A DNA stretch of 64,000 bases, from the NCBI GenBank assembly GCA_000802095.1, contig JUEB01000011.1:124001-188000 (forward strand). Reading direction: 5' to 3'. The notes below the pieces were generated by a model. That model saw only the letters and a list, made by a program, of their open reading frames with translations. It ran no database searches and was not told where the DNA came from. Positions 11,287 to 60,158 of the stretch are shown here, piece by piece; within the stretch, counting starts at the first letter, position 1; every line of letters begins with the position of its first letter. Both the position numbers and the translations under genes were made by a program. The stretch is from Peptococcaceae bacterium BICA1-7 (GTDB lineage: Bacteria; Bacillota; Desulfotomaculia; Desulfotomaculales; Desulfocucumaceae).

Positions 11287-11515
11287 AACAAAAAGCCTGT
11301 CGCAACAAATCAGAAGGACGCCAGGCCTTTAATAAAAAGTCCGCCTTCTTCACTCGTACAAGCTTTGGCACTGAACAGCTAGGGAGTAATAAAAAACTCC
11401 CAGCCGCATTAAGTAAAACCTTAATCCGGTAGTACCTGTTAACCCGTTACCGTCTCTCGACGTTTCCGGGCAGCGGCATATGTCTGCGCAGAAGCCTCAC
11501 CTAACGAAGATGCAC
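11287..11515 (-). promoter_or_regulatory. M-box (ykoK) Mg2+ riboswitch with terminator
   Basis: Reading the minus strand, the conserved M-box core is nearly complete: CGTTAGGTGAGGCTTCT, then CAGACATATGCCGCTGCCC, AACGTCGAGAGACGG, GGGTTAACAGGTACTACCGG, ATTAAGGTTTTACTTAATG and GCGGCTGGGAG (about 11395-11506). Downstream an imperfect GCCTG/CAGGC hairpin with TTTTTGTTTTTTTT (about 11280-11330) forms the terminator. Mg2+ binding should terminate transcription before corA. Confidence 0.95.
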
Positions 11516-26583: not shown

Positions 26584-26904
26584 TTAAGCTATACTCCTAT
26601 TAAATAGTTATTATTAATGGGTAATTATATAATAGAAAAACATTATAATTCAAATAGAATAATTTTATAATGAGAGACGTTGAATAAACTTTGTTAATGA
26701 AATGATGGGATGGTTCTTTTCATTAGATGGTATAAATTAACTTTGCATTATTATTGCGGATAACAAATGCTGGATGCAGACATCAACGGGCCAAAGTCCA
26801 AACCCAGCCTGCATAATAACCAGAAATTTCTTTTTAATAATTCCATTATATTTTTTTACATACCCACCGAAATCTAGTGATCTGTCCGAATAACTGTATA
26901 AAAA

Positions 26905-27038
26905 CAACAGGCCGAATTTCCATTATGGAATACGGGGGATCAAATTTGGGGCTAATCCTTTATAACACAGGAGGTGAAATTTAAGGTTATGAAGGAGGGG
27001 TACCCTCAATCCCAGCCCGGCAACTAACCCCGGAGGCC
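26905..27038 (+). promoter_or_regulatory. c-di-AMP (ydaO/yuaA) riboswitch
   Basis: The order of conserved elements is seen: GGCCGAATTTCC, ACGGGGGATCAA, GGGGCTAATCC, a variable stem, GGGTACCC, then CCCGGCAACTAACCCCGGAGGC just before the ribosome site of a LysM cell-wall hydrolase gene. This class usually controls cell-wall enzymes and is an OFF switch for c-di-AMP. Some positions deviate from consensus (GCTAATCC instead of GTGAATCC). Confidence 0.8.
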
Positions 27039-27051
27039 AAAGGAGGGACAA

Positions 27052-27831
27052 ATGCGTCAATTTCTCAAGTCACGCTTGATTGTGATCATGTTTCTATGTC
27101 TTTTTGCCTTTCCTTCCACCTTCGCCCTCGCCTCAACATATACAGTGGCCAAGGGCGACTCCCTCTATCAGATCAGCCAGAGATACAAGACCCCTGTGGA
27201 AGAAATCCGCGCGGCCAACAATCTAAAAGATGATGTGATCAGCCCCGGGCAACAGTTGAACATTCCCGACCGGCCGTATACCGTGCAAGAAGGGGATAAC
27301 CTCTATTCTATAGGCCTCCGGTTCGGTGTTTCCTTCCAGGAAATTATGTTGGCCAACGGATTGAAAAACGAGGACATCTATCCCGGTCAGGCACTGCGAA
27401 TTCCGGCCGGCCAGGAGAATGTCAGCAGGGGCGACCTCTCACCCTACGGTAGGATTCCCTACTCCGAGGGGGATTTGGACCTTCTGGCCAGGCTGATTAC
27501 CGCCGAAGCCGACTCAGAATCTTACGTCGCTAAAGTGGCTGTGGGTGCAGTGGTCCTGAACAGGGTCAAAAGCCCTCTTTTTCCCAACACCATAGCAAAG
27601 GTAATTAATCAGGCAAATGGCGGTGTATACCAATTTGTGCCGGTAAAAAACGGTTCCATCAACCGTCCTGCTAAGCCTGACTCCATTCAGGCGGCAAAAG
27701 AGGCACTGAACGGTTCGGACCCCTCCGGCGGCGCCCTTTACTTTTTTGAGACCCGGGTGTCCAGCCCTTTTCTCCAGTCCCTGCCTGTCAGCGTGAAACT
27801 TGACAGCTTTACCTTTGCTCACGCTAAATAA
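27052..27831 (+). CDS. LysM-SleB cell-wall hydrolase
   Basis: Secreted peptidoglycan enzyme, 259 aa. The signal peptide spans about residues 1-27 (LIVIMFLCLFAFPSTFALAS). Two LysM domains follow: YTVAKGDSLYQISQRYKTPV (about 29-72) and YTVQEGDNLYSIGLRFGVSF (about 75-117). The C-terminal SleB/hydrolase_2 domain starts at LDLLARLITAEADSESYVAK with the catalytic Glu, and contains VVLNRVKSPLFPNTI. SleB enzymes are lytic transglycosylases acting on spore cortex or wall. It lies directly behind a c-di-AMP riboswitch. Confidence 0.95.
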   Translation: MRQFLKSRLIVIMFLCLFAFPSTFALASTYTVAKGDSLYQISQRYKTPVEEIRAANNLKDDVISPGQQLNIPDRPYTVQEGDNLYSIGLRFGVSFQEIMLANGLKNEDIYPGQALRIPAGQENVSRGDLSPYGRIPYSEGDLDLLARLITAEADSESYVAKVAVGAVVLNRVKSPLFPNTIAKVINQANGGVYQFVPVKNGSINRPAKPDSIQAAKEALNGSDPSGGALYFFETRVSSPFLQSLPVSVKLDSFTFAHAK

Positions 27832-29199: not shown

Positions 29200-29430
29200 T
29201 AGCCAACTGGGCCGAATCTCCAAAAAACGGGGTACGGAGGAACCGATTTTATGGGGTGAATCCCTATTTAAGTGGTCAGGCGAAAGACATAAGACGTCAG
29301 TACAGGGTAACTTTATTGGTTAAAAACTATTCTAATGCCCTAAATCCAACGTCCGAAGTCCGACATCCGACTACTGAATCGGGTAGGGTTATCTTTTTCC
29401 CGAACCCGTCAGCTAACTCCGGAGGCTGAA
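29200..29430 (+). promoter_or_regulatory. c-di-AMP (ydaO/yuaA) riboswitch with heptad insertion
   Basis: Strong matches: GGGCCGAATCTCC, ACGGAGGAACCGATTT, TGGGGTGAATCC, GGGTAGGGTTATCTTTTTCC, then CGAACCCGTCAGCTAACTCC and GGAGGC, followed by AAAGGGG and the ATG of a CAP-domain protein. Between the GTGAATCC and GGGTAGGG blocks, a loop is expanded by an array of seven-base units (29344-29371). Confidence 0.93.
29344..29371 (+). repeat. Heptanucleotide array inside the riboswitch
   Basis: Units CCAACGT, CCGAAGT, CCGACAT, CCGACTA in register at seven bases. It is a different heptamer family from those at 9.2-10.1, 12.5 and 18.2 kb, but has the same period. Confidence 0.75.
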
Positions 29431-29447
29431 AAGAAAGGGGTAAATCA

Positions 29448-57450: not shown

Positions 57451-57804
57451 ATGAGTAAAACATCAGTAGCACTTATTGTCAAATTTGTAATGACGTTTGT
57501 TGCAGCGGCCATAGCCTTCATGATTCTAGAGCGGAATGCATTAGGATGGGTGGCACTAGTAGCCCTTGCAGGAACAATTTTAAACTACCTGCTCGGTGAC
57601 CTTGTTATTCTACCCCGGTTTGGCAACATTGTGGCCTCTTTGGGTGATGGTGTCCTTGCTGCAGTAACAGCTTATGTAGTCGATCTTATTGTCCCGGGGT
57701 TTACAACTACCTGGGCAGCACTGGCAGCTTTTGCAGTCCTTGTCGCCGTTGCGGAATACTTTTTCCATGCATATCTACGGCGATCAGAAAAGGTTGCCCC
57801 TTAA
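57451..57804 (+). CDS. DUF2512 (YndM-like) membrane protein
   Basis: 117 residues with four membrane helices: VALIVKFVMTFVAAAIAFMI, VALAGTILNYLLGDLVILPR, ASLGDGVLAAVTAYVVDLIV and ALAAFAVLVAVAEYFFH. This matches the DUF2512 family of spore formers. AGGAGGTG precedes the ATG and a terminator follows. Confidence 0.88.
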   Translation: MSKTSVALIVKFVMTFVAAAIAFMILERNALGWVALVALAGTILNYLLGDLVILPRFGNIVASLGDGVLAAVTAYVVDLIVPGFTTTWAALAAFAVLVAVAEYFFHAYLRRSEKVAP

Positions 57805-57820
57805 GCTTTTAGCTCCATGA

Positions 57821-57852
57821 AAAAACGACCCCCTGAATGGAGGTCGTTTTTT
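57821..57852 (+). terminator. Terminator after DUF2512
   Basis: AAAACGACCCCCTGAAT..GGAGGTCGTTTTTT, nearly identical to the hairpin after tRNA-Leu at 23886-23919. Confidence 0.9.
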
Positions 57853-58017
57853 AATTTCACCGGCCTGCAGTCAAAACCGTCACCATGATACACACTGCCG
57901 TACAGGTCAGTAATATTATCTCTGTTTTGGCATACCTAAAACTCCCTATGGAATAGAATATAAATGTAAAAAGAGAAAACGATTACCACGTAGACTTTTT
58001 AAGAAAAAGCCTATACA

Positions 58018-58300
58018 ATATATATGTAAAAAACCGGAGGTAAAAATATAGACATGCGTTTCGACCAATAAGTCCTTAACCAAACTGGATAGGGTTGCCG
58101 GAGTCTGTCTGCCGGTGCAGTGGTCGAAATAAGTGTGTCTTTTTTAACCCTCTGATAAAGGGAAATTTTATAATAACAAGGCATTCCATAATACAATCTC
58201 CGCTAAATGGATGGTATGGATGCTTTAGCTTATTGCCATATTGACCCTTCGCATCCGGAAAGCAGGCAGACAGGAGCCTGTTTTTTATTTGAGGATGAGG
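58018..58300 (+). promoter_or_regulatory. Attenuator-like leader of the ABC-F gene
   Basis: CCGGAGGTAAAAA is followed by an ATG (58054) opening the five-codon frame MRFDQ. This overlaps the first strand of a long hairpin (AGACATGCGTTTCGACCA with TGGTCGAAATAAGTGTGTCT) ending in TTTTTT near 58145. A second hairpin CAGGC/GCCTG with TTTTTTAT lies about 25 nt before the coding start. Such leaders control ribosome-protection ABC-F genes when antibiotics stall the leader ribosome. Confidence 0.62.
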
Positions 58301-58310
58301 AGGGTTTTTT

Positions 58311-60158
58311 ATGTTGATACTTAAAGTTGAGGGACTTAAAAAGGATTGGAACGGAAAACAGGTGTTTGAAAATGTTAATCTTGAAATACATCGAGGAGAA
58401 CGTATTGCCCTAATGGGAGGGAACGGGGCAGGAAAAACTACACTCCTGGGGTGCCTGTCAGGTCAGGTTTCCCCCGATGAGGGAAAGATTTTTCGCCGCT
58501 TGCCTGTAAAGGCATGGGGAATAATAGAGCAGCATTTAATAGTCCCGGAGGCACTGACAGTGCAAGAATTTATTAAATCGGGGCACACAGTTTTATACCG
58601 CTTGAAAAATGAATTGAACCAGTTGGAGAATATATTGGAATATGAAAAAGGGGATGGACTGAACATTGCCCTTGAACGTTATAGTACCCTCCTGGAACGT
58701 TACCAATCTCTGGGGGGATATGAGTGGGAATATGAGGTCAATGCTGTCCTTTGCCGGTTCGCCCTTTCAGGGAAGGTCCTGTACCGGGAATTAAGCGGGG
58801 GGCAGAAAACAAAAGCCCAGTTGGCCCGGGTTATGGCAGGGAACCCTTCATTTCTGCTCATGGATGAACCTACCAACCACCTGGATATGGAGACGCTGGA
58901 CTGGCTCACATGCTGGGTACAGGCATTTCATGGCACTGTTTTGTTTGTATCTCATGACCGGGAGTTTATCGACCGGGTGGCTGATAAAACGGTGGAGCTT
59001 TCATTAAAAGGAACTAAAACATACCCGGGAGGATACTCGGACTTCCTTAAAGAACGGGAACGCGAAGGTAAGGAACAAGAAGCCCTTTATAAAAAACAGC
59101 AGCAGGAAAAAAAGAAAATTGAAGAAGCCATTGGCCGCTATAGGGAATGGTTTATGAAGGCCCATGAGGCGGCAGGGGAGCGGAGCCCCTTTTATAAGAA
59201 GAAGGCGGAAAAAAACCGGACACGTTTTAAAGCAAAGGAAAAAGCACTGGAACGCCTGGAAAAGGAACAGGTGGAACGTCCCAAAGATATACCCGGTATA
59301 CATGTCAGCTTTAAAGAAAATGTCTTTGAAGCCCGCCAGTTGGTCCGAATGGAAGATGTGGGGTTTTCTTACGGTGATCAGCAGGTGCTCCAGAACGTGA
59401 ATCTTACCATTTCCCGGGGTGACAGGGTGGCCGTGGCCGGCCAGAACGGAAGCGGCAAAACCACACTCCTAAAACTTCTGTCTGGAAAGCTTCAGCCCCG
59501 GGCAGGGTCCGTCATCCATCATCCAGTATTAAGAATAGGCTACTTCGCCCAGGAACTGGATAACCTCAATAATGAAGAGACTATACTGGACAGTTTGCTT
59601 CGCCTGCCGGGTATGACTCAGCGGGAGGCACGAAATATTCTGGCAGGCTTTTTCTTTCGGCAGGATGAAGTATTCCGCAACATAGGCACCCTTAGCATGG
59701 GGGAACGGTGCCGGTTAGCCTTTGTCATGCTTTATTTTTCTGATGCTAACCTGCTGGTATTGGATGAGCCCACAAACTATCTGGACATTCACACCCGGGA
59801 GCAGGTGGAGGAAGCCCTTATCCGCTATCCCGGCGCGCTGGTAGTGGTTTCTCACGATAGATATTTGTTGAAGAAAGTTTCCAACCGGGTTATCCTCCTG
59901 AATGAAGGCCAGATGACTTATTATCCTGGTAATTATGAAGAGTTCCAGAACTACCTTTATAAAGCAGCCTGCCGGCCTGCTGACCGCGAAATGGAAGACC
60001 GCATGCTTTCCCTTAAACTGGAACTGGCCCGGCTTATGGCCGGGTCAGAACCTGAAGGAGAAGACGAGAAAGAGCTCTTTTATGCCAATATTCGCCAGGT
60101 AAAGGCGGAATTGGACGAACTGCTGACTGATACCGGCCCTCCGGTGAAGAACAGCTAA
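58311..60158 (+). CDS. ABC-F ATPase, ribosome-protection type
   Basis: 615-residue soluble protein with two ABC domains and no membrane part. Walker A: GGNGAGKTTLLG and GQNGSGKTTLLK. Signatures: ELSGGQKTKAQLARVM and TLSMGERCRLAFVML. Walker B: LLMDEPTNHLD and LVLDEPTNYLD. A charged interdomain linker (about residues 245-335) would be the PtIM that reaches the ribosomal E/P site. Antibiotic resistance or translation-factor roles are both possible; the attenuator-like leader favours resistance. It converges on the malic enzyme gene with a four-base overlap. Confidence 0.9.
   Translation: MLILKVEGLKKDWNGKQVFENVNLEIHRGERIALMGGNGAGKTTLLGCLSGQVSPDEGKIFRRLPVKAWGIIEQHLIVPEALTVQEFIKSGHTVLYRLKNELNQLENILEYEKGDGLNIALERYSTLLERYQSLGGYEWEYEVNAVLCRFALSGKVLYRELSGGQKTKAQLARVMAGNPSFLLMDEPTNHLDMETLDWLTCWVQAFHGTVLFVSHDREFIDRVADKTVELSLKGTKTYPGGYSDFLKEREREGKEQEALYKKQQQEKKKIEEAIGRYREWFMKAHEAAGERSPFYKKKAEKNRTRFKAKEKALERLEKEQVERPKDIPGIHVSFKENVFEARQLVRMEDVGFSYGDQQVLQNVNLTISRGDRVAVAGQNGSGKTTLLKLLSGKLQPRAGSVIHHPVLRIGYFAQELDNLNNEETILDSLLRLPGMTQREARNILAGFFFRQDEVFRNIGTLSMGERCRLAFVMLYFSDANLLVLDEPTNYLDIHTREQVEEALIRYPGALVVVSHDRYLLKKVSNRVILLNEGQMTYYPGNYEEFQNYLYKAACRPADREMEDRMLSLKLELARLMAGSEPEGEDEKELFYANIRQVKAELDELLTDTGPPVKNS

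Follow-up and report, generated by a model that had tools for sequence, protein, structure and literature searches.

What controls the ABC-F gene in the window (the whole 64-kb stretch of DNA analysed), and is the leader that precedes it a switch worked by a ribosome stalled by an antibiotic? Published ABC-F attenuators consist of a uORF in the first hairpin, a terminator, an antiterminator pairing and a hairpin that sequesters the Shine-Dalgarno sequence (SD) of the gene (PMC9226507, PMC10201436). From a ribosome site, a short frame and two hairpins with T runs, the original prediction proposed that the region fits antibiotic-induced attenuation of ABC-F genes. We found that its observation of the leader is confirmed and that all published attenuator parts are present, with compensating changes; two of them, the antiterminator and an outer stem that hides the SD, were absent from that description. 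The leader very probably belongs with the VmlR and CplR attenuators, which respond to a stalled ribosome, and is presumably induced by a drug.

Results

The ABC-F gene and its relatives

The original prediction placed the leader before an ABC-F gene, and the profile models agree: the protein scores 501 bits against the NCBIfam model ribo_prot_ABC_F (NF000355), whose cut-off is 380. Other ABC-Fs of the same genome also exceed this cut-off, so that the match does not prove resistance. The curated subfamily models stayed below their cut-offs (433 bits for Sal and 355 for Vga, where 725 are required, and 306 of 780 for CplR), and since the protein reaches the cut-off of no named resistance class, its resistance role is one that we infer. 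Of the relatives with a solved structure, chain 7p48_6 ranks best; it is described as an 'ABC-F type ribosomal protection protein' and is Sal(B). The missed cut-offs for curated resistance subfamilies would also suit a non-resistance translation factor, with the same switch sensing general translation trouble. We consider this quite improbable, because the patchy occurrence in three of 113 genomes, the cassette-like recurrence and the best specific scores, those for Sal and Vga, suit an accessory resistance gene; the ABC-F gene is likely an antibiotic-resistance gene. At L002, one of the other ABC-F loci of this genome (L002-L004), no attenuator-like leader was seen when the upstream region was read in gene orientation.

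A genome scan returned 21 loci, the best of them in Desulfocucumis palustris (81%) and Desulfotruncus arcticus (75%). A close copy occurs in three of the 113 genomes of the order, namely that of the window and these two, and is absent from two genomes of the same genus. DNA similarity starts at 57962 with D. palustris and at 57990 with D. arcticus, just before the -35 element, and stops close to where the gene ends. Six proteins encoded next to it in the window were all missing from the 3-kb flanks in both species. These similarity limits and unrelated neighbours indicate cassette-like behaviour of the promoter together with the leader and the gene. A plasmid search returned just a conserved ABC stretch of 115-117 nt in five Enterobacteriaceae records.

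Relatives with 44-50% protein identity were found in a single family, presumably Paenibacillaceae as judged by the genome names, where 65 of the 197 genomes sampled have one, and also in Lentibacillus and Alicyclobacillus. The leaders of the Paenibacillaceae relatives have the same order of parts. Leaders were obtained for 99 loci (three without a start), of which 47 were at an identity of at least 43%, and 42 remained once five duplicates were dropped. An SD and a short uORF are present in 40 of these 42, and the terminator T2 (Table 1) was detected automatically in 37.

Layout of the leader

The transcript is predicted to start at about 58026, which gives a leader of about 285 nt (58026-58310). 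The promoter has the counterparts TGGACT/TAAAAT in D. palustris and TAGACA/TAAAAT in D. arcticus, with the 17-nt spacing kept. Being conserved in three species and lying upstream of both hairpins, it speaks against the refuting case named with the original prediction, in which transcripts start past them. Upstream of the promoter, a stem with a T-run (about 57818-57855) lies between the leader and the gene at 57451-57804.

Table 1. Features of the leader and its gene, with RNA elements noticed elsewhere in the window (positions are those of the window).
Feature	Position	Strand	Remarks
Promoter, sigma-70 type	57991-58019	+	TAGACT-17-TACAAT; kept in three species
uORF Shine-Dalgarno	58036-58040	+	GGAGG; invariant in three species
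uORF MRFDQ	58054-58071	+	ATG CGT TTC GAC CAA TAA; five codons and stop
H1, long hairpin	58050-58140	+	5' arm 58050-58067 with uORF codons; 3' arm 58121-58140 with GTGTGTC
U6 run after H1	58140-58145	+	From tail scores
Antiterminator, 5' strand	58105-58113	+	CTGTCTGCC; top of H1
Middle stem-loop	58180-58223	+	GGCATTCCAT...GGTATGGATGC; tip of antiterminator in alternative fold; position of VmlR's SL-2
Outer stem	58244-58310	+	ACCCTTCGCATCC 58244-58256 / GGATGAGGAGGGT 58293-58305; encloses T2, sequesters gene SD
T2, terminator hairpin	58263-58286	+	CAGGC 58263-58267 / GCCTG 58276-58280; U6 58281-58286
Antiterminator, 3' strand	58265-58273	+	GGCAGACAG; overlaps T2 5' arm; complementary to CTGTCTGCC
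ABC-F ribosome-protection-type ATPase	58311-60158	+	615 aa; from profile models
M-box magnesium riboswitch	11342-11515	-	144 bits
Two c-di-AMP riboswitches	26900-27052, 29200-29442		2.1 kb from each other on one strand; both pass the gathering score

The uORF peptide becomes MRSDR in D. palustris and MRFDR in D. arcticus. The original prediction had both the ribosome site and the frame overlap the first strand of the long hairpin; the frame does lie within the 5' arm of the H1 core, but the SD sits just upstream and pairs only in an extended fold. The second hairpin with a T run 25 nt before the coding start is recovered as T2 with its U6, about 25 nt from the ATG at 58311. The T2 run reads U6 in the window and U7 in D. 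palustris and is interrupted in D. arcticus. The gene SD (58297-58304, GAGGAGGG) is covered by the outer stem, and a third U-run (58305-58310) precedes the ATG. In the middle stem-loop, TTCCATAATA (58185-58194) is invariant in the three close species and its pairing partner there varies.

Folding energies are lower than in shuffled sequence both for the whole leader (z -4.8; -95.5 kcal/mol) and for the H1 region (z -3.8; -35.1 kcal/mol), with 0 of 200 shuffles in each case. GGAGG, an ATG and a short ORF arose together in 61 of 2000 dinucleotide shuffles, and a stem of at least nine pairs ahead of T6 in 42 of 1000; a simple terminator scan reported neither H1 nor T2. Single parts are thus not very rare by chance, and it is their conservation in relatives that carries the case. 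A long 5' region that contains a spurious uORF and hairpins due to chance would be in keeping with the appearance of single parts in 3-4% of shuffles, yet such an origin is extremely improbable for parts that are kept in three species with compensating changes and that recur in the same order in Bacilli relatives.

Conserved and mutually exclusive pairings

The T2 region was misaligned by MAFFT in the three-species alignment (A1), and the helices were therefore compared by hand. All 10 pairs of the uORF arm of H1 are kept, two of them with changes on both sides, and at the foot of H1 three of eight pairs are broken in some relative, two of these in D. palustris. The nine antiterminator pairs are unbroken, with one changed on both sides. 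The five pairs of T2 are invariant in the three species, hence uninformative for covariation, and the 14 pairs of the outer stem include one both-side and four one-side changes, with two positions broken somewhere. Covariance among relatives, the check suggested with the original prediction, yielded compensating changes in H1 and the antiterminator; the counts, from three sequences, are small and appear mostly of the right sign for conserved structure. The parts, their conservation and covariation, the exclusive pairings and the position of the promoter are all read from sequence and comparison.

The antiterminator pairing is mutually exclusive with both H1 and T2. Its duplex energy was matched by 8, 25 and 4 of 1000 shuffles of the H1 interior in the three species. 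Over 38 leaders, relatives included, the duplex gave p<0.05 in 19, with a median p of 0.06; because these leaders are related and not independent, a combined p over the 38 is not a true probability. Five close Paenibacillus-type leaders (L014, L060, L095, L099, L102) showed no excess of antiterminator pairing over shuffles. The set of 38 is without L063, L064, L085 and L089, and T2 was set by hand for L011, L023, L084, L086 and L091.

The role of H1 and its U-run

H1 is likely an anti-antiterminator, and it may be a first terminator as well. The U6 that follows it may be a terminator tail, a NusG pause motif or the 3' side of a helix between an A-tract and a U-tract. Tail scores for H1 and T2 were 4.27 vs 3.00 in the window, 4.93 vs 3.24 in D. 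palustris and 4.70 vs 1.68 in D. arcticus. The scores thus speak for H1 as a site of termination or pausing, and those of D. arcticus do so most clearly. A run of T5 or longer after H1 occurs in all three close species and in three of 35 other leaders (6 of 38 in all).

These data bear on the possibility of tandem terminators, in which H1 itself would be an intrinsic terminator with the uORF as its 5' arm and a stall would lift this terminator directly and T2 by way of the released strand. The U6-U7 directly after H1 in three of three species fits this arrangement, as does an H1 tail that outscores that of T2 in each species and is high where that of T2 is poor. However, the loop of H1 (about 50 nt, with two inner stems) is long and branched, unlike that of canonical terminators; D. 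palustris has lost two pairs at the foot of the stem; the U-run may instead form a helix with the A-tract upstream or act as a NusG TTNTTT pause; and 32 of 38 leaders have no T5 after H1. We regard tandem terminators as the foremost alternative, possible though doubtful, and the 'double terminator' of the original prediction is not established, because H1 may be an anti-antiterminator or a pause hairpin. A relay of two terminators worked by one ribosome is unlikely; in it the uORF, shifted from an upstream bulge as in the Bacilli relatives, would form part of the stem of terminator 1, the top of terminator 1 would serve as the antiterminator of terminator 2, and the start codon would have an SD lock together with a third U-run.

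Simulated ribosome stalling

Stalling was simulated by keeping 32 nt at the uORF unpaired, folding to equilibrium and scoring the probability of the T2 core. A ribosome with codon 3 in the P-site lowered the T2 core probability to 0.06 in the window (1.00 without a ribosome) and to 0.00 in D. palustris (0.99 without), against 0 of 60 shuffles in either case. When codon 2 occupied the P-site, the window kept T2 at 0.78, or 0.91 in a stricter setting, with part of the U-run included. In the stricter setting applied to 37 leaders, 7 of 20 shuffles equalled the T2 effect in the window, and we found that this effect varies with the stalled codon and the transcript length. Over the 37 leaders (a set without L023, L085, L086, L088 and L089), T2 dropped by 0.30 on average, compared with 0.01 in shuffles; the drop exceeded 0.5 in 10 leaders and was 0.5 or less in 27.

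D. arcticus showed no switch in the equilibrium fold. There the antiterminator prevails even without a ribosome, and kinetic folding must therefore be assumed. On the full-length window leader, T2 refolds (0.97) in spite of the ribosome, indicating that the mechanism would depend on the order of synthesis, which equilibrium folding ignores. The SD stem also persists in that fold with the ribosome on codon 3 (0.93).

Persistence of the SD stem bears on a mainly translational control, with T2 and the outer stem chiefly hiding the gene SD and little termination. Such control would suit the cover of the SD by the outer stem, with its both-side and one-side changes, and in CplR translational attenuation alone is enough for repression (PMC10201436). 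We nevertheless find it rather improbable: two of the three species, like most relatives, have the T2 U-run, the antiterminator targets the 5' arm of T2 rather than the SD, and in the full-length fold of the window a simulated stall leaves the SD stem in place.

A drug-induced attenuator would work as follows. In the absence of drug, the ribosome would translate MRFDQ and depart, H1 would close with the antiterminator strand locked in its top, and RNA polymerase would stop at T2, perhaps earlier at the U-run of H1; in read-through RNA the gene SD would still be hidden by the outer stem. A drug that blocks the first peptide bonds at the peptidyl-transferase, with pleuromutilins, lincosamides and streptogramin A as the likeliest candidates, would stall the ribosome on the uORF, over the 5' arm of H1. 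With H1 kept open, the freed 5' strand of the antiterminator would pair with the 5' arm of T2, and T2 would not form. Transcription would then continue, the SD could be exposed, the ABC-F protein would be made and the drug would be cleared. Stalling, drug class, termination, induction and the resistance function of the protein are the steps that we infer.

Kinship with other leaders

Covariance model R1 was made from 27 hand-chosen Bacilli leaders, with the three close species excluded. RNAalifold on the MAFFT alignment of these leaders (A2) gave no pairs, and the structure of R1 was therefore set by hand. Under a rough calibration, the best match of R1 in the 64-kb window was the leader (58029-58161, 16.1 bits, E 0.018), with the next at 8.9 bits. 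In 222 kb, under the same rough calibration, the window leader had an E of 0.062 and D. arcticus reached 17.1 bits (E 0.037); the D. palustris leader gave no match at E<=5. Given this calibration, common descent with the Bacilli leaders is likely rather than proved. When the window is aligned to R1, nothing in it corresponds to the Bacilli uORF ATGAAGTAA, and its ACATG occupies the place of the Bacilli stem strand ACACG; relative to the Bacilli leaders, the uORF has apparently shifted into the H1 stem. Model R2, which included two group members, found those two and one weak site in 113 genomes.

In Rfam 15, no family matched over the leader at gathering score or at relaxed thresholds. The relaxed matches were low-scoring and outside the leader, the nearest being snoRNA-like (58306-58373) and far under its cut-off. 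A riboswitch reading of the leader was set aside, as there was no family match and the uORF accounts for the hairpin.

Other uORF leaders were noticed in the same collection. In a second ABC-F group, from Tepidanaerobacter-type genomes and some of the window's order, the uORF has seven codons, M[K/R]xVFFN. These codons make up the 5' arm of a hairpin that is long and almost perfectly paired, and a terminator follows (n=14: L016, L018-L022, L025, L033, L034, L051, L070, L073, L075, L078; three are apparently second copies of the same genomes). In L033 the uORF reads MKRVFLN and the 3' arm AGTTTAAAAACAC is altered in step, suggesting that pairing rather than peptide is conserved. An Alicyclobacillus leader (L012:2693-2825) has a nine-codon uORF, MSNSNGLSK, with its ATG inside a stem (GACATG / TGTGTC), parallel to the window.

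Discussion

The vmlR leader of B. subtilis has the uORF MIN in SL-1, a terminator in SL-3 and an SD-hiding SL-4 (PMC9226507). Like it, the window leader combines a uORF in the first hairpin (SL-1, the anti-antiterminator) with a middle stem-loop, a terminator and an SD-sequestering hairpin, and its antiterminator excludes both the first hairpin and the terminator (SL-3). Unlike vmlR, it has a uORF of five codons (MRFDQ) instead of three, placed in a stem rather than a bulge; a U-run closes H1, the stem that hides the SD encloses T2, and the leader measures about 285 nt against 219 nt (PMC9226507). The vmlR leader has been tested by experiment (PMC9226507), whereas the switch in the window is predicted from sequence and comparison.

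The cplR leader of Clostridioides difficile, with the uORF MR[I/M], has a terminator structure that hides the SD (PMC10201436). The window leader resembles it in its Met-Arg uORF in the first hairpin, in hiding the SD by the terminator structure and in a predicted transcript end at the start codon; it differs in its longer uORF and in two separate U-runs before that at the start codon (PMC10201436). The order of SD, uORF, hairpin with conserved 3' GTGTGTC, terminator and gene SD is common to it, to the VmlR2-type Bacilli leaders (MK[L/Q], PMC10201436) and to those of the Paenibacillaceae relatives (MK*, MNN*), but in the latter two the uORF lies upstream of an ACACG/CGTGT stem, whereas the ATG of the window leader stands at the place of the 5' strand of that stem. 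As in msrD, a drug-stalled ribosome on a very short uORF (MsrDL) would prevent a terminator before an ABC-F gene; in contrast, MsrDL is a macrolide-specific nascent peptide, and neither an antiterminator relay nor an SD hairpin is described for msrD in the part of that report available (PMC10314930).

The consensus uORFs listed in the ABC-F leader reports consulted are MIN, MK[L/Q], MR[I/M] and MAGN, with MRFDQ absent, and Desulfotomaculum is not mentioned in PMC10201436. The literature searches listed no publication on this leader for the bacterial group of the window. Peculiar to the window leader are the predicted position of the uORF start codon inside a stem and an H1 with its own U-run. 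The leader as a whole is well supported as an ordinary, already known kind of switch: a distantly related example from a further lineage, in which the uORF is displaced and one more U-run is present.

The analysis provides about 40 leaders with a testable antiterminator, at a time when Rfam 15 holds no family matching the leader of the window, and it extends the ABC-F attenuator from Bacilli and Clostridioides to environmental relatives of sulfate reducers. The comparison suggests that the order of parts is retained while the peptide and position of the uORF drift, which would mean that such uORFs sense blocks in early elongation with little regard to peptide sequence.
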